DNA of 64,000 nt from positions 1,860,001-1,924,000 of the forward strand of contig NZ_JBFUPK010000001.1 of the NCBI RefSeq assembly GCF_041355105.1, written 5' to 3'. Shown here in pieces: positions 1,721-58,924 of this stretch (within the stretch, counting starts at the first letter, position 1; every line of letters begins with the position of its first letter). The notes under the pieces are model-generated. The model made no database searches. It was not told the DNA's origin and saw nothing but the letters and a program-made list of their open reading frames with translations. The position numbers and the translations under genes are program-made. The stretch comes from Terriglobus sp. RCC_193. Lineage in GTDB: Bacteria > Acidobacteriota > Terriglobia > Terriglobales > Acidobacteriaceae.

Positions 1721-1796
1721 TGGTGGACGCGGTAGGAATCGAACCTACAACCTGTCGATTAAGAGTCGAATGCTCTGCCAGTTGAGCTACGCGTCC
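1721..1796 (-). tRNA. tRNA-Lys (anticodon CTT)
   Basis: Read on the reverse strand, the 76-nt sequence folds as a tRNA. The acceptor arms GGACGCG and CGCGTCC pair, and the D arm is GCTC...GAGC. The anticodon loop reads CTCTTAA, giving anticodon CTT (lysine). The T arm is GTAGG-TTCGATT-CCTAC. A discriminator A and a genome-encoded CCA close the 3' end. The outermost anticodon-stem pair is a mismatch. No integrase or attachment-site repeat is seen nearby. Confidence 0.95.
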
Positions 1797-1938
1797 AGGT
1801 TGGGAACACGCTGAGATCGTACCGAAGACCAGAGGCCAACACGGCAGGGAGCGGGAGCTCCGTCACAGCTGCGTTACTTCGTAACTATAGCACACATAGG
1901 GGCATGCCTCAAAGGATGTGCATATGAGGAAAACCCTC

Positions 1939-3699
1939 TTAGAAGGTGAACGTCAGCCCTGCCTGCAATGCACGCGGCGTCTGCGCCAGATACAGCGTCT
2001 GCCCATCGGTCGAAAGATACGGCTGATACCCTTCCGCCAATAGATTCTGCAGATCGACTACTGCTTCCAATCCCTGTGGCACACCCGGCAGGCGTCCCAG
2101 TGACTGGCGCACAGAGCACGAAAGATACGCTCCATCATCACTGACGCGGAAGGCATCCACCGCCGTCAGCGTGCGTCCTGGCTGCCAGCGGTACGACGCG
2201 CGCAAGGTGGTTCCTGTGCGCAGAATTTTGCCATCAACAAATGCCGTTCCAGCGTACACACGATCCGGCGATAGCCCTGCGAGCACTTCACTCAGACTTC
2301 CCTGCTGCACGAAGGCCGCACGCAAAGCGCGCCCCGTAGCCATCTCCGCACCGAAACTCATGCTGTGCGTCACCGGCTGACGGAACGAAACACGTATGCC
2401 ACCGCTGGAGTAGTCCCTGCCCGCCACACGATAGGTTCCCGTCGTCGGGTCTGCGATAAAACCCTCTGCAGGGATTTCCGCCACTGCCAGCGTGCCTGTG
2501 CCGCTGATCAAGGGCGTCTGCAGTGAATCCTGATACAGCGCAACTTCAATAACACCCTCGCCTCGAATCTTCTTCGCGGCAGACAGCGCATGGTGGCTTC
2601 CTGTCTCCATGCGGAGATGCCCTTTGCGCATTACTGCGGCCGGAAGTGGTGCCTGTACGCGATCCAGGTCTTCAATGGATTCGGTGCCGCGCGATCGGGT
2701 CACTCCATAGGCCAGTATGAGACCGCCGGGACCATGCGCCTGCACGCGCAGGAACGGTTCCATAGCCACCGCATTCCCACTAAAATTCACTTCACGCAGA
2801 ACAGAGCCCACGTCCACGCGAATCATGTCTCCCAGCTCCATCCGTTCTGCGGAACGAAGGACGGCTCCCTGCAGCCCTGTCTGTCCCAGGCCGGAAGTCA
2901 GTTCCGGATGACCGCTGTAACTCAGGACCGTGCGTGCATATCCGTTCAGCATGGTGCGTCGCTGGAACCCGACACTCACATCGGCAGAGGGTGCAACAGG
3001 ATAGGGCGTCCTGGGCCCAGCCAGGTCCGCACGCAGCACGGAACCACTGCCATGTTCGTCCACCCGCGTCAGCACCAGCACCTGGTGCGTGCCACCACGC
3101 CCAAATCCGCCGTCGCTGCTCTTCAAAGAGAGACTGCCACCCGTTGCGCCACGGCGGCTTTCCTGGCGACTCGAAGAGATGCTTAACTGACCATCATTAT
3201 CGGTGTCGACGGTGTAGGTTTTCTGGTCTGCATACCGCAGCATGGGACGGCTGGCAGACGAACGCAGCGTCCACATCCAGTCATCGCTCGGCTCATTCAC
3301 CGTGCGGCGAGACGCGGGAATCCATCCGCTGGGGGCCAGCAAAGTGGACAATGTCATGTCCACAACGGTACGTCCGCCACGTGCCAGCACCAGGTGCTGA
3401 CGAACACTGGGCATCAGCAAGGCAGCGGTCGCTTTGATGTTGTATTGTCCGGGACGCAGGTTCAACCGGTAACGCCCACGCGCATCGGTCACGGCAGAGG
3501 CCACCAAGCCCGTGTCAGGGAGGATTGCTTCCACGAGCGCGCCCATCTGTGGAACACCCTCCGCGTCGCGGATCACGCCAGTGAGCAGGCCGCTTCCCGC
3601 TGCGTCCACCACGCGCCTCGACTGCGCATCCGCCCAGGGCGAACAGGCTAGCGCTGCCAGCGTAAGGAGCATTCCGGATTGCAACGTCGACTGCTTCAC
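1939..3699 (-). CDS. Secreted carboxypeptidase-regulatory-like protein, probable outer-membrane barrel
   Basis: This 586-aa protein begins with a signal peptide (residues 1-25, cut near ADA-QS). Residues ~38-115 form a CarboxypepD_reg-like Ig-fold domain (LLTGVIRDAEGVPQMGALVE, then DARGRYRLNLRPGQYNIKA). The remainder is rich in alternating hydrophobic, Gly and aromatic residues. It ends ALQAGLTFTF, and the terminal Phe is typical of proteins inserted by the BAM machinery. No TonB plug motif or catalytic motif is seen. Acidobacteria carry many such secreted CarboxypepD_reg proteins of unknown function. A beta-barrel or surface carbohydrate-binding role is inference. Confidence 0.65.
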   Translation of the reverse strand: MKQSTLQSGMLLTLAALACSPWADAQSRRVVDAAGSGLLTGVIRDAEGVPQMGALVEAILPDTGLVASAVTDARGRYRLNLRPGQYNIKATAALLMPSVRQHLVLARGGRTVVDMTLSTLLAPSGWIPASRRTVNEPSDDWMWTLRSSASRPMLRYADQKTYTVDTDNDGQLSISSSRQESRRGATGGSLSLKSSDGGFGRGGTHQVLVLTRVDEHGSGSVLRADLAGPRTPYPVAPSADVSVGFQRRTMLNGYARTVLSYSGHPELTSGLGQTGLQGAVLRSAERMELGDMIRVDVGSVLREVNFSGNAVAMEPFLRVQAHGPGGLILAYGVTRSRGTESIEDLDRVQAPLPAAVMRKGHLRMETGSHHALSAAKKIRGEGVIEVALYQDSLQTPLISGTGTLAVAEIPAEGFIADPTTGTYRVAGRDYSSGGIRVSFRQPVTHSMSFGAEMATGRALRAAFVQQGSLSEVLAGLSPDRVYAGTAFVDGKILRTGTTLRASYRWQPGRTLTAVDAFRVSDDGAYLSCSVRQSLGRLPGVPQGLEAVVDLQNLLAEGYQPYLSTDGQTLYLAQTPRALQAGLTFTF

Positions 3700-3902
3700 T
3701 GCGTAGGTGTGCCTTCTCTGCGTATCAGCCTCACCCGGAAGTTCTCATCTTGCGAACCCGGGAAAACGAAATACTTGCGGGCGAGCGGCGATGTCGTATC
3801 TTGCCTTTTCTCGTCCCTAAGAACGGGATTCCGATCTACGGAATCCGCCTGATGCACGTACCAGCCGAAGCCCTGCCCTGACGAACCAGCCTGCCCAGCA
3901 GT

Positions 3903-5669
3903 TTACTCCACAACAAAGTTCGCTGTCTGCGAAATCTGCTGCTTGGAAATGCCATCGTTCACCTTGATGGCCAATTGATACTTTCCAGGTGCCAGGCTTC
4001 CCAGCGGGAGGCTCTTTTCCAGGGTCACCTGATCGGCGTTCGGATTTGTCTTTGTGGTGGACTCCGTTGTGTCCAGCACCTGCTTGTTCGTATCCAGATT
4101 GGTCACCTGGTACTGAATTTCCGCGTTGTTCTGCTTGCTCTTATCGTCAATGCCCAGGTTGTAAACCTGCATCCAGAAGTTCAGGTTGCCAGCCTTCTTG
4201 AATGTAGCCGGAACACCGGGACCCGTGGTCACGCTCGGCATCACCTTGGTATTGCCGATCACAAAGGAGCCTGCACCAATTTCCTTTGACGGCACGCGCG
4301 TCATGCTGGAAGCCAGAATCAGGGACGATGCCGAGAGATGGTCATCGTCGTACTTCGGAACGTTCACCGACCGCTTCCACGTACCCACGTGGTCCGGGTT
4401 ATTTACGTCCTTGATGACGATGTCGACCTTGTACATGCCAGGACGCAGCGGTAACGCCTTCCAATACAGGTTGCGCTGAGCCTGCGTGCGTGCCAGAAAC
4501 TCACTGGGAACCGTAACATTTACAGTGTCTTCAAACGTCTGCACCACGCGGTGGTTGATGTTCGATATCTGCCCCAGGATGTTCACGGTACCGGTAGAAA
4601 TACCTTCCTTGGTATTGAATGTGATGTCCTGATTGCGGATTTGCAGCGTCACCGGCACCAGAACGGTATCGTTCGTCACCTTCACATAATCCGTGCGGAC
4701 GTCGAACAGGAACGGCGGCCCCTTCAGAATTTCTGACGAGGTCAGGTAATGCTCCATGTCCTTGAACTTGATGGGCGGCGCCGCCATGATCTTCGCGTAC
4801 AGGTTGATGCGATCAAACTGCTTGGACTGCTGCGAGGTCGACATCGGGCCGTTGCCAAGCTGCTCCAGACCATTGTTCATACGGTCTTCGCGCTTGGCGA
4901 TACCCATCTGCTCATACAGCGTGGCGCCTGCGCCAGCCACGTACTTCAGCGCGTCCTTTTCAGAACGGTCGATGGTCAGGTGGTAATCGTTGCACTGGCA
5001 GGTATCGACAAATTCCAGGTCGATGTTGTCACCGATACCTTCCAGGTAGCGGTAGTGCCACGTTTCAAACGGGAAGGTCGATGTGGTGCCGCCACCTTCT
5101 TCAATCGGGCGCTGGTAGGTTCCGCCGGACGGATGCGAATCAATTGAATCTGCCTTGCCAAACGCAATGTAGATATGGCCGCGGTCGGTCTTCCATCCTG
5201 GTTTACCCGCAGCGAAGTGTTCATTCGCGTAGGCGATACGGCGATAGTGCTCGTCCTTGTACTCGTTTTCCGGCGAATCCGGATTCGGGTTACGGCGCAG
5301 CCAGAAATTTTCGACAAAGTTTTCGCGTTCTTCGTCGTTCTTCAACTGCTTGAACGCCTGCATCTCCTGGTCCGTGATGATCCACACCACGTCCTGCTCC
5401 AGCCACTTCTTCCAGGTGCCGTCCGGCTTCAACTCGTTCTTTAGATATTTCTGCTGCTGCACGCGCTCGCGATCAGACAGGCGACGCTTCATTGGATCCG
5501 GCCGCTCTTCCGGCGGCGTGCTCTTGTTCACGGAGGGAACAGCTTCCTGCTGCTGTTGCTGCGAATCAGGCTGGGGCGAGGTCTGCGCGTGAGCGCTCCC
5601 GGTCATTACCATCCATCCACAGATCAGCGCCACTGCACCGATCTTTCCCTGCCAGACTGCCTTGCTCAT
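3903..5669 (-). CDS. GWxTD domain-containing protein
   Basis: The start is placed at the ATG ending at 5669 because the first residues then form a signal peptide (hydrophobic core VALICGWMVMTG, cut after AHA). The longer upstream frame only adds a non-signal lead. The 588-aa product has a Gln-rich linker (~36-60), and around residues 95-175 the family's hallmark GWKTDRG (158-164) followed by IYIAFG. The C-terminal half consists of predicted beta domains with SLPLGSLAPGKYQLAIKV near the end. GWxTD proteins are widespread in Acidobacteria; their biochemical role is unknown. It is divergent from the adaptor gene at 5933. Confidence 0.85.
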   Translation of the reverse strand: MSKAVWQGKIGAVALICGWMVMTGSAHAQTSPQPDSQQQQQEAVPSVNKSTPPEERPDPMKRRLSDRERVQQQKYLKNELKPDGTWKKWLEQDVVWIITDQEMQAFKQLKNDEERENFVENFWLRRNPNPDSPENEYKDEHYRRIAYANEHFAAGKPGWKTDRGHIYIAFGKADSIDSHPSGGTYQRPIEEGGGTTSTFPFETWHYRYLEGIGDNIDLEFVDTCQCNDYHLTIDRSEKDALKYVAGAGATLYEQMGIAKREDRMNNGLEQLGNGPMSTSQQSKQFDRINLYAKIMAAPPIKFKDMEHYLTSSEILKGPPFLFDVRTDYVKVTNDTVLVPVTLQIRNQDITFNTKEGISTGTVNILGQISNINHRVVQTFEDTVNVTVPSEFLARTQAQRNLYWKALPLRPGMYKVDIVIKDVNNPDHVGTWKRSVNVPKYDDDHLSASSLILASSMTRVPSKEIGAGSFVIGNTKVMPSVTTGPGVPATFKKAGNLNFWMQVYNLGIDDKSKQNNAEIQYQVTNLDTNKQVLDTTESTTKTNPNADQVTLEKSLPLGSLAPGKYQLAIKVNDGISKQQISQTANFVVE

Positions 5670-54533: not shown

Positions 54534-56702
<2,169 letters not shown>

Positions 56703-56751: not shown

Positions 56752-56883
56752 GTCATTCTGAGCGTAGCGAAGAATCCCGAGGCATTCTCACGCAGCGGGA
56801 CACACCCCGCTTTTTACGAGAAAGCCACCCGCTTCTCCGGTGGCCGATGCATTGTCGGGATTCTTCGCTGCGCTCAGAATGAC
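56752..56883. repeat. Inverted pair of CAGAATGAC interspersed repeats
   Basis: Two 29-nt arms (56752-56780 and 56855-56883) are inverted copies with a single mismatch. The 74-nt interior holds smaller hairpins (AGCGGG...CCCGCT and CCACC...GGTGG). A third, single copy lies at 21824-21851. The whole unit resembles a small non-autonomous palindromic repeat element without any gene. Confidence 0.8.
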
Positions 56884-56939
56884 AAGGCCCAAAAAGCCGC
56901 ATCCTCCGGGCACGTTGTACGATCAAAAGAGAGATACAG

Positions 56940-57368
56940 ATGTTGAAGCTGAGCCAATCCGACTACGAAGCACTGCGCATGCATGGCGAGGAGACGTATC
57001 CGCATGAGTGTTGCGGCATTCTCCTGGGCCACGCGGGCGAGGTGAACCAGGTGGTCGAGATTATGCGTGCAGGCAACACCCGCACCGACTCCGCCCACAA
57101 CCGCTACCACATTGCGCCGCAGGAACTGATCAAGGCGCAGCGTGAGGGACGGAAGAAGGGGCTGGACATTGTCGGTTTCTATCATTCGCATCCCGATCAT
57201 CCGGCACAGTGGTCCGTTACGGACTTTGCCGAAGCCCACTGGTTCGGTTGTAGCTACGTCATCACGGCCGTAGCGCAGGGCAAGGCCGAGGTGACGAATG
57301 CATTTCTTCTGCGCGGCACCAGCGAAGAGGACAAGCGGTTTGAAGACGAGGAAGTTGTCGTCGGCTAG
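56940..57368 (+). CDS. JAMM/MPN+ metalloprotease (Mec-like)
   Basis: This 142-aa protein is a single JAB1/MPN+ domain. The catalytic Glu is E23 in PHECCGILLG, and the zinc motif is H82-S-H84-x7-S92-x2-D95. It is similar in size and motifs to mycobacterial Mec+, which cuts after the Gly-Gly of the sulfur carrier CysO. The next gene, 62 nt downstream on the same strand, encodes a CysO-like domain fused to its activating enzyme, so that protein is the likely substrate. All zinc ligands are present, so the enzyme should be active. Confidence 0.92.
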   Translation: MLKLSQSDYEALRMHGEETYPHECCGILLGHAGEVNQVVEIMRAGNTRTDSAHNRYHIAPQELIKAQREGRKKGLDIVGFYHSHPDHPAQWSVTDFAEAHWFGCSYVITAVAQGKAEVTNAFLLRGTSEEDKRFEDEEVVVG

Positions 57369-57430
57369 TTCACTTCACCCGGAACACCCCGCTGCATCTC
57401 ACAATGTGCAGCAGTCATCCAAAGGAAGTT

Positions 57431-58924
57431 ATGACGATTCTGATTCCAACCCCGCTGCGTGGTTTTACGGACAACAAGTCCACCGTTGATGTAACCGCAG
57501 CAAACGTCAAAGAAGCTCTTGCTGCGCTGACAGAAGCGCATCCCGCCATTAAGGGCCACCTGTTCACCGCCGAAGGCAAGCTGCGCTCGTTCGTGAACGT
57601 TTATGTAAACGACGACGATATCCGCGATCTGCCCGGCAAGGACGAGACGGCGCTGAACGCTGGCGACGAAATCTCGATCATTCCGTCGATTGCCGGTGGC
57701 GCACCCGCCATTGCGGAAGAGGCCATCGCCGAAGAACTGCCGACGCTGACGAACGAAGAAATTGCCCGCTACTCGCGCCACCTGATCCTGCCGGAAGTGG
57801 GCATGGACGGCCAGCGCAAGCTGAAAGCAGCGAAGGTGCTCTGCGTTGGCACGGGTGGACTGGGCGCGCCGCTGGCTCTCTATCTTGCAGCAGCAGGCGT
57901 GGGCACCATCGGACTTGTTGATTTTGACGTGGTCGATGAGAGCAATCTGCAGCGCCAGATCATCCACTCGCAGTCCACTGTGGGCATGCTGAAGGTGGAC
58001 AGCGCCGAGCAGATGCTGAAGGGGCTGAACAAGAACGTCAACGTCGTGAAACACAACACGATGCTGACCTCTGCGAATGCCCTGGAAATCTTCAAGGATT
58101 ACGACGTCATTGCAGACGGCACGGACAACTTCCAGACGCGCTACCTGGTGAACGATGCCTGCGTTCTGACGGGCAAGCCGAATGCCTACGGCTCCATCTT
58201 CCGCTTTGAAGGACAGGCTTCTGTCTTTGCCACGGAAGAAGGTCCCTGCTACCGCTGCCTGTACCCCGAACCGCCGCCGCCGGGGCTGGTTCCCTCGTGC
58301 GCGGAGGGTGGCGTACTTGGCATTCTGCCGGGTCTTGTGGGTGTGATTCAGGCAACGGAAGTGATCAAGCTGATCCTTGGCATTGGTGAACCACTGATCG
58401 GTCGTCTGCTGCTGGTGGACTCGCTGGGCATGACTTTCCGCACGCTGAAGCTGCGTAAGAACCCGAACTGCCCCGCCTGCGGCACGCATGAGATCAAGGA
58501 ATTGATTGATTACAACCAGTTCTGCGGCATCACTGCTCCCACCGAAGTCGGGCCGCTGGAAGTGGCTTCGCATGGCGTGGTGACCGGACTGGAAGACAAG
58601 GACGGCATTCCGCAGATCAGCGTGGAAGAGCTGAAGGCAAAGCGCGAGGAAGGCAAGGCGTTCATCCTGGACGTACGCGAGCCGCATGAGGTGCAGATTG
58701 TCTCCATTGGCGCTCAACTGATTCCTGTGGGAGAGCTGGAGCAGCGCATTGGCGAGATTGCTTCGCACAAGAACGATGAAGTGCTCGTGCATTGCAAGAG
58801 CGGTGCGCGTTCGCAGAAGGCTTCGCTCATCCTGAAGAACGCCGGTTTCACCAACGTGAAGAACGTTGCGGGCGGCATTCTGGCATGGGCGGATCGCATT
58901 GACCCGAGTCTGCCGAAGTACTAA
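57431..58924 (+). CDS. CysO/MoaD-like carrier - MoeB-type E1 - rhodanese fusion
   Basis: ATG 57431 follows AAGGA; the 497-aa protein has three domains. Residues 1-90 are a ubiquitin-fold sulfur carrier with FVNVYVNDDDIR and the ending IIPSIAGG (Gly89-Gly90), like mycobacterial CysO. After a 17-residue linker comes a MoeB/ThiF domain (GTGGLG 140-145, zinc cysteines 273/276 and 347/350, catalytic-type Cys290 in SCAEGGVLG). The C-terminal rhodanese has active Cys455 in HCKSGARS. The fusion thus carries the carrier, its adenylating enzyme and its sulfur donor. The di-Gly is internal and would need cleavage to work. Confidence 0.93.
   Translation: MTILIPTPLRGFTDNKSTVDVTAANVKEALAALTEAHPAIKGHLFTAEGKLRSFVNVYVNDDDIRDLPGKDETALNAGDEISIIPSIAGGAPAIAEEAIAEELPTLTNEEIARYSRHLILPEVGMDGQRKLKAAKVLCVGTGGLGAPLALYLAAAGVGTIGLVDFDVVDESNLQRQIIHSQSTVGMLKVDSAEQMLKGLNKNVNVVKHNTMLTSANALEIFKDYDVIADGTDNFQTRYLVNDACVLTGKPNAYGSIFRFEGQASVFATEEGPCYRCLYPEPPPPGLVPSCAEGGVLGILPGLVGVIQATEVIKLILGIGEPLIGRLLLVDSLGMTFRTLKLRKNPNCPACGTHEIKELIDYNQFCGITAPTEVGPLEVASHGVVTGLEDKDGIPQISVEELKAKREEGKAFILDVREPHEVQIVSIGAQLIPVGELEQRIGEIASHKNDEVLVHCKSGARSQKASLILKNAGFTNVKNVAGGILAWADRIDPSLPKY

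Follow-up and report, generated by a model that had tools for sequence, protein, structure and literature searches.

The closest described counterpart of the genes considered here is the mycobacterial CysO-CysM-Mec+-MoeZ pathway, which consists of a sulfur carrier, a cysteine synthase, a JAMM metalloprotease and an E1-rhodanese. MoeB/MoeZ chemistry requires a free carboxyl group on the last glycine of the carrier, and the CysO-cysteine bond would be a Gly-Gly-Cys linkage through the cysteine amino group. In the QbsE/QbsD and HcyS/HcyD pairs a JAMM protease trims residues lying past the carrier di-glycine; these tails are short and contain no fused enzyme. The trimming of ubiquitin precursors by deubiquitinases provides a parallel. 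The following is taken from the accessible parts of four published articles. Mec+ hydrolyses CysO-cysteine (PMC3227635). MoaX, for which the need for a free last-glycine carboxyl has also been argued, is cleaved at the Gly82-Ser83 bond by a protease that is not named there, and Gly81 is needed for this (PMC4326299); in Deinococcus the MoaD-MoaE protein is cut by the JAMM protease DRJAMM (PMC8832034). Iyer et al. (2006) described an operon type, 4c, containing ThiS/MoaD, E1-rhodanese, JAB and cysteine synthase genes in Solibacter and Rubrobacter and suggested that the JAB protein may free a fused ThiS/MoaD, an idea that has therefore been in print since 2006 (PMC1779556).

Here we describe a locus of the soil bacterium Terriglobus sp. 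RCC_193 found in a window of 64,000 nucleotides, the whole stretch of DNA that was analysed. With the mycobacterial pathway it has in common a carrier, an E1-rhodanese, a JAMM and a cysteine synthase, and in relatives genes of these kinds stand side by side, but the carrier is fused ahead of the E1-rhodanese with its di-glycine internal, and cysM lies apart. The gene set is also that of operon type 4c, Acidobacteria included, whereas the carrier-E1-rhodanese fusion and a link between carrier tails and JAMM are not described in the accessible part of that article (PMC1779556). With MoaX and the Deinococcus MoaD-MoaE protein the locus shares a carrier whose internal di-glycine needs a cut to work, made in Deinococcus by a JAMM; as far as the accessible text goes, the fused partner there is an acceptor enzyme, MoaE, whereas here it is the activating enzyme (PMC4326299, PMC8832034). 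No three-part fusion or rule about carrier tails was named in the titles and abstract openings that were searched; most subscription journals lie outside that search, and print elsewhere is possible. What is chiefly new is that, across the sampled Acidobacteriota genomes, extended carriers go with a Mec-type JAMM.

The locus in Terriglobus sp. RCC_193

As the original prediction had it, the 497-residue protein joins a carrier domain containing Gly89-Gly90, a MoeB-type E1 domain and a rhodanese domain containing Cys455, and the Pfam matches are all above cut-off (Table 1). An alternative in-frame ATG at 57404 would give a protein of 506 residues. The carrier domain resembles the solved chains 4n6e (ThiS/MoaD family) and 3dwg_C, and the chains nearest to the E1 part are E. 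coli MoeB (1jw9) and Uba4 (6yub). The layout, ThiF with CxxC pairs followed by a rhodanese with an active cysteine, is that of MoeZ, MoeBR and Uba4. Cys455 (codon 58793-58795) is conserved in all 24 fused proteins that were aligned, as are the E1 cysteines Cys273/Cys276, Cys347/Cys350 and Cys290, the last of which aligns with the SCxE cysteine of Uba4. Compared with the curated NCBIfam families, the fusion lies over the cut-off for the MoeB entry PRK08762 (490.3 against 449 bits) and under that for the MoeZ equivalog PRK07878 (491.4 of 647 bits); we take it to work like MoeZ though outside this equivalog.

The JAMM gene directly upstream was correctly predicted to be intact. The metal-site residues Glu23, His82, His84, Ser92 and Asp95 (Glu + HxH-x7-S-x2-D) are all present, each is conserved in 34–35 of 35 aligned JAMM sequences, and the nearest solved chain is 2kcq. 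The true start of the pyrG gene is probably downstream of the listed open-frame start. Between pyrG and the JAMM gene (window 56752-56885) there is an inverted repeat of the type GTCATTCTGAGCG...AAGAATCCCG, and a similar sequence is intergenic in locus L012 (L and G numbers denote loci and genomes, G000 being that of RCC_193 itself). Two antisense open frames of 475 and 470 residues, opposite the fusion and pyrG, were taken for mirror frames.

Table 1 Features of the locus and of further carrier genes in the same genome (positions without a locus number are those of the window)
Feature	Position	Strand	Evidence or remark
pyrG (CTP synthase), presumed from its sequence	54771..56702	+	Open frame at the site where most relatives carry cysM; context only
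JAMM/MPN+ metalloprotease (Mec-like), 142 aa	56940..57368	+	Prok-JAB 83.6 bits (cut-off 25)
Carrier-E1-rhodanese fusion, 497 aa	57431-58924	+	62 bases 3' of JAMM gene
ThiS/MoaD/CysO-like carrier domain, residues 1-90	57431..57700	+	PF02597 residues 3-90, 46.4 bits, above cut-off
Di-glycine Gly89-Gly90 inside the protein, with the predicted cut after Gly90	57695..57700	+	Present in 37/37 fused loci
Variable linker, residues 91-104	57701..57742	+	2-31 residues across 36 fused loci
MoeB/ThiF-type E1 adenylyltransferase domain, residues 105-352	57743..58486	+	ThiF residues 114-349, 272.9 bits, above cut-off
Rhodanese domain, residues 397-487	58619..58891	+	PF00581 52.4 bits, above cut-off
MoaX-like MoaD-MoaE fusion, internal Gly-Gly (GG-SPSRIEL...)	L101 3407-4129	-	
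Threonine-synthase-like PLP enzyme gene and carrier ending GGCM	L099 1447-3058 (G000:C1 about 283.4-285.1 kb)		Carrier directly 3' of the enzyme gene
ThiS ending GGGRS	L103		

Recurrence of the fusion

A single unbroken match over residues 1-497 was found in 10 other genomes of the genus, at 75-98% identity, and therefore the fusion is no sequencing accident. For T. roseus (L004) the identity is 86%; in at least five genomes of the same genus the carrier is in a separate frame. One scan of genome contigs gave at least 581 stretches encoding relatives, the best 80 of which are mostly from Acidobacteriota, with others from Rubrobacteraceae, Anaerolineales, Bacteroidetes, Ignavibacteria, Kiritimatiellae, Elusimicrobia, KSB1 and Armatimonadetes. 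Among the matches listed there are 104 distinct E1-rhodanese relatives, the carrier being fused in 37, separate in 58 and absent from the locus in 9; two with a run of N inside the gene (L008 and L116) were labelled fused by hand. The original prediction asked for the three-part fusion to be sought in other Acidobacteria, where it has now been found repeatedly, so that the arrangement is not a singular one. The fusion is a variant, arising again and again, of the known cysM-mec-cysO-moeZ group of genes.

In a tree of the 104 sequences (110 rows before removal of duplicates; L001-L003 and L084-L104 unused) there are at least 10 switches between fused and separate carriers, a count to be read with care as the method was quick and many forks are open; the starred branches force four for the fused label. 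A JAMM gene lies in the examined stretch of 35 of the 37 fused loci and none was seen in that of the other two. One locus, L033 (3572-4264), has a natural JAMM-carrier fusion in one open frame ending in GGR, with the E1 separate. No docking of JAMM and carrier was seen in an AlphaFold2 model of this protein, a weak model with pTM 0.51 and residues 88-134 below 50.

Conservation of the di-glycine

The di-glycine is retained in all 37 fused and all 58 separate carriers (95 in total); fused homologues lacking it, which had been named beforehand as counting against a cut at this position, were looked for and numbered 0 of 37. The first residue beyond it in the 24 aligned fused proteins may be A, S, T, L, I, V, G or R. 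The fusion has an internal Gly-Gly at a domain border, as is typical of cleaved carrier fusions of the MoaX type. Amongst the separate carriers, 55 of 58 have a tail after the di-glycine and three stop at it, so that trimming would be required for the majority of the unfused members as well. Carriers in two relatives (L064 and L131) end in GGC and would equal the CysO-cysteine adduct, if the bond in the adduct is Gly-Gly-Cys through the cysteine amino group. AlphaFold2 applied to the 24 fused sequences gave a mean pLDDT of 82.5 and a pTM of 0.66, with residues 87-100, the di-glycine included, below 50. This fits a flexible linker; the model says nothing on cleavage.

Three observations argue that the di-glycine would be freed by the JAMM: it is kept while the residues that follow vary, it sits in the model in a linker of low confidence, and related fusions are cut at this place (MoaX, and MoaD-MoaE by DRJAMM, in the accessible parts of PMC4326299 and PMC8832034). 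A fused carrier that is never cut might instead serve as a docking or regulatory domain, the E1-rhodanese acting on other carriers such as the GGCM carrier, MoaD or ThiS. The genome does encode other carriers and, according to the accessible part of PMC3227635, the mycobacterial E1-rhodanese activates several, but a docking domain has no evident need for the Gly-Gly that is so strictly kept, and the other three carriers of the genome are extended too, so that some cutter would be required anyway. We consider this explanation unlikely, and it was rejected as the main reading on the conservation of the di-glycine.

Carriers and E1/JAB genes elsewhere in the genome

The genome of RCC_193 contains four carriers over the ThiS cut-off, all of which have residues past the di-glycine (Table 1). 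A separate CysO and MoeZ doing the work in the same genome would have spoken against the original prediction. A separate CysO-like carrier, ending in GGCM, is indeed present; a second E1-rhodanese was not found in the genome, where two other E1 proteins have no rhodanese match. We speculate that the threonine-synthase-like enzyme encoded next to the GGCM carrier may be a carrier-dependent sulfhydrylase acting on a homoserine derivative. Further threonine-synthase-like genes are present at L092 and L093. There are two JAB matches in the genome, the JAMM of the window and one in L100, where an E1-like gene, a gene that we read from its sequence as E2-like and a JAB gene stand in a row (1765-4228) as a bacterial ubiquitin-like gene group.

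Extended carriers and Mec-type JAMM

The extension of all four carriers in a genome with a JAMM gave the idea that a Mec-type JAMM permits extended carriers. It was examined in a set of 119 Acidobacteriota genomes, each at least 90% complete, that were scanned for Prok-JAB. From these, 36 with at least 65 bits were taken as JAMM-positive and 42 as JAMM-negative, the latter made up of 20 without a match and 22 whose matches are weak, reaching 25.8 bits at most, with three just over the cut-off of 25. The weak matches lie in frames of 230-340 residues and we take them to be RadC. Left out of the 119 were intermediate hits, further JAMM-positive genomes and four unlisted genomes without a match, and 7 of the 42 JAMM-negative genomes gave no usable carrier. 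The rows not counted were matches ending before the last profile column (including L329 and L330), many of which lie in long frames that are presumably RelA/TGS-like, three JAMM-positive rows in frames of 626-646 residues, and the unclear L328.

Carriers of the ThiS, MoaD and CysO types are extended in 83 of 120 cases in JAMM-positive genomes and in 0 of 73 in JAMM-negative genomes, where all 73 stop at the di-glycine. The 120 clear JAMM-positive rows comprise 37 carriers ending at the di-glycine, 47 with tails and 36 fused, with one further row unclear. An extended carrier is present in 35/36 JAMM-positive against 0/35 JAMM-negative genomes (Fisher p = 1.7e-19) and, by family, in 23/24 against 0/22 (p = 5.8e-12), kinship making both p values too small. 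Sorted by end motif, the extended carriers number 15/28 against 0/23 for ThiS-like, 23/33 against 0/25 for MoaD-like, 36/45 against 0/5 for CysO-like and 9/14 against 0/20 for other motifs. The JAMM-positive and JAMM-negative genomes differ in ancestry; in the five families with both kinds, four run in the expected direction and one is a tie. Since 37 of the 120 JAMM-positive carriers end at the di-glycine, as does the sole carrier read in the JAMM-positive genome G061, extension is permitted and not required.

A small sample of Actinomycetota, in which 68 of 91 listed rows were read, from 25 of the 27 genomes with matches (completeness figures not given), shows 32 of 57 carriers extended in JAMM-positive against 1 of 11 in JAMM-negative genomes, or 19/20 against 1/5 by genome (p = 0.002). 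The one exception is a tail of two residues in G190, a genome with a weak JAB hit only, for which completeness is not given. Two of the 23 unread rows are in JAMM-negative genomes (G190 and G214), two genomes with matches ending at column 71 only were left out, and G197 was counted as JAMM-positive on a partial hit of 42 bits.

The partners to which carriers are fused vary and are, as we read them from sequence, E1-rhodanese, MoaE, ThiG-like, rhodanese alone and cysteine synthase. In L342 (G201, Actinomycetota) the carrier continues after GG into cysteine-synthase-like sequence, and those of L275, L260 and L181 continue into rhodanese-like sequence with no E1 between.

Cleavage after Gly90 by the JAMM is a well-supported prediction, because extended carriers are confined to JAMM-bearing genomes in the Acidobacteriota sample. 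Another protease could make this cut, leaving the neighbouring JAMM only to free cysteine from the carrier, and the protease acting on MoaX is indeed unnamed in the accessible part of PMC4326299. The absence of any extended carrier from the JAMM-negative Acidobacteriota argues against it, as do the JAMM genes in the examined stretches of nearly all fused loci and the cleavage of such a fusion by DRJAMM (PMC8832034, accessible part), and we think it improbable.

Cysteine synthase and the sulfur acceptor

According to the original prediction no CysM-type cysteine synthase is adjacent and the sulfur acceptor is open. The first statement holds in the window, where pyrG is upstream, but not for most of the relatives examined. 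Clustering of the neighbouring frames gave cysteine synthase as one dominant neighbour (47 loci). In a BLAST-based count of loci with JAMM and at least 700 bases upstream (12 loci with shorter flanks and those lacking JAMM left out), cysM precedes JAMM on its strand by no more than 250 bp in 27/34 fused, 35/37 separate and 0/2 no-carrier loci; a cysteine synthase neighbour is thus found in 62 of the 71 loci having carrier, JAMM and enough flank. In T. roseus cysM, JAMM and the fusion follow each other in a row. In RCC_193 and two near kin (L106 and L107) cysM is absent from this place.

The RCC_193 genome itself has eight PALP matches. BLAST pairs only one of them with the operon CysM, namely L094 (G000:C2:1633869-1634726). 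This ortholog shares 88% identity with the CysM of T. roseus, and so the cysM gene that was to be sought elsewhere in the genome is present. From their sequences we take six of the other matches to be dehydratase-like, threonine-synthase-like or TrpB-like; the eighth is weak. As cysM is the usual upstream neighbour in relatives and an ortholog exists elsewhere in this genome, the L094 CysM is a strong candidate and most likely the acceptor enzyme, which the original prediction had left open. Either O-phosphoserine or O-acetylserine may be the substrate of CysM; its nearest solved relatives are of the cysteine synthase A kind when a single sequence is compared and of the B kind when a profile is used. 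No serine acetyltransferase over the TIGR01172 cut-off was found in the genome of RCC_193 (best 91.9 of 210.65 bits), though there may be a divergent one.

Between carrier and E1-rhodanese genes there are short frames with many cysteine codons, for example ...STCCCCCPLCCCR-stop (L052 4256-4436, L054 303-481, L058 4256-4407, L020, L074, L083 and others). Leaving out L008, L011, L116 and regions under 60 bases, at least four Cys in eight codons are found in 14 of 55 regions upstream of E1-rhodanese genes compared with 8 of 1650 shuffles; the comparison regions gave 2/54 downstream, 0/42 upstream of JAMM and 0/36 upstream of fused carriers. Polycysteine leaders responsive to cysteine have reportedly been found in an earlier study, and the frames resemble these. 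Folding of the carrier-to-E1 regions supported no attenuator hairpin, the mean z being +1.06 in 15 Cys-rich regions, which are less structured than their shuffles, and -0.78 in the 34 remaining regions.

A further possibility is that the JAMM is an isopeptidase in ubiquitin-like tagging of the archaeal SAMP kind and the free carrier a protein modifier instead of, or besides, a sulfur carrier. The best-scoring NCBIfam name for the JAMM is desampylase (NF041370), at 85.8 of 130 bits and so under the curated cut-off, and the E1 matches the SAMP-activating UbaA, also under cut-off (341.2 of 450 bits). Against this stand the cysteine synthase neighbours, on which an archaeal-type tagging system was rejected as the main reading, and the Cys-rich frames before the E1 gene, which hint at cysteine control in some relatives. 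There is in our view little chance that tagging is the function.

Proposed mechanism

The architecture, the conservation of the di-glycine, the gene neighbours and the association of JAMM with extended carriers are read directly from the genomes; the cleavage, the cutting enzyme, the thiocarboxylate and the acceptor are what we infer. The 497-residue protein would be a precursor. With a free carboxyl required on the last glycine, the fused chain as made could not be loaded. The JAMM would hydrolyse the peptide bond after Gly90 to give a CysO-like carrier (residues 1-90) with a free di-glycine and an E1-rhodanese (residues 91-497). The E1 would then adenylate the freed carrier, the rhodanese Cys455 would provide persulfide sulfur, and a CysM-type cysteine synthase would use the carrier thiocarboxylate to make cysteine, which the JAMM would also free from the carrier. 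We put the probability of this scheme as a whole at about 75%.

If the CysO-cysteine bond is Gly-Gly-Cys through the amino group, it is of the same kind as Gly90-Ala91, and processing of the fusion would therefore need no new activity. The JAMM should therefore cut the precursor by its native activity, and tails and fusions would cost little once it is present, which would explain frequent fusions with different partners. JAMM would then act as a general carrier maturase, in whose presence any sulfur carrier would tolerate a C-terminal tail or fusion and such extensions would accumulate. A stronger version, for which we see the chances as even, is that one Mec-type JAMM is the obligatory maturase for all sulfur-carrier pathways of the cell (cysteine, molybdopterin, thiamine and that of the threonine-synthase-linked carrier), its native reaction having made the loss of a stop codon after the di-glycine harmless. 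If so, loss of JAMM would block all four pathways together, an evolutionary ratchet by which a peptidase that releases cysteine became a processor of precursors in general.

An isolated fusion thus becomes a testable rule, that tails and fusions on carriers are dependent on a JAMM of the Mec type. Should it hold, genomes would be readable for JAMM-dependent sulfur-carrier pathways, many annotated ThiS, MoaD and CysO genes would encode precursors, and the trimming of carrier precursors by JAMM would become directly testable in culturable Terriglobus. The genome comparisons suggest that it is the JAMM that lets such masked carriers exist.
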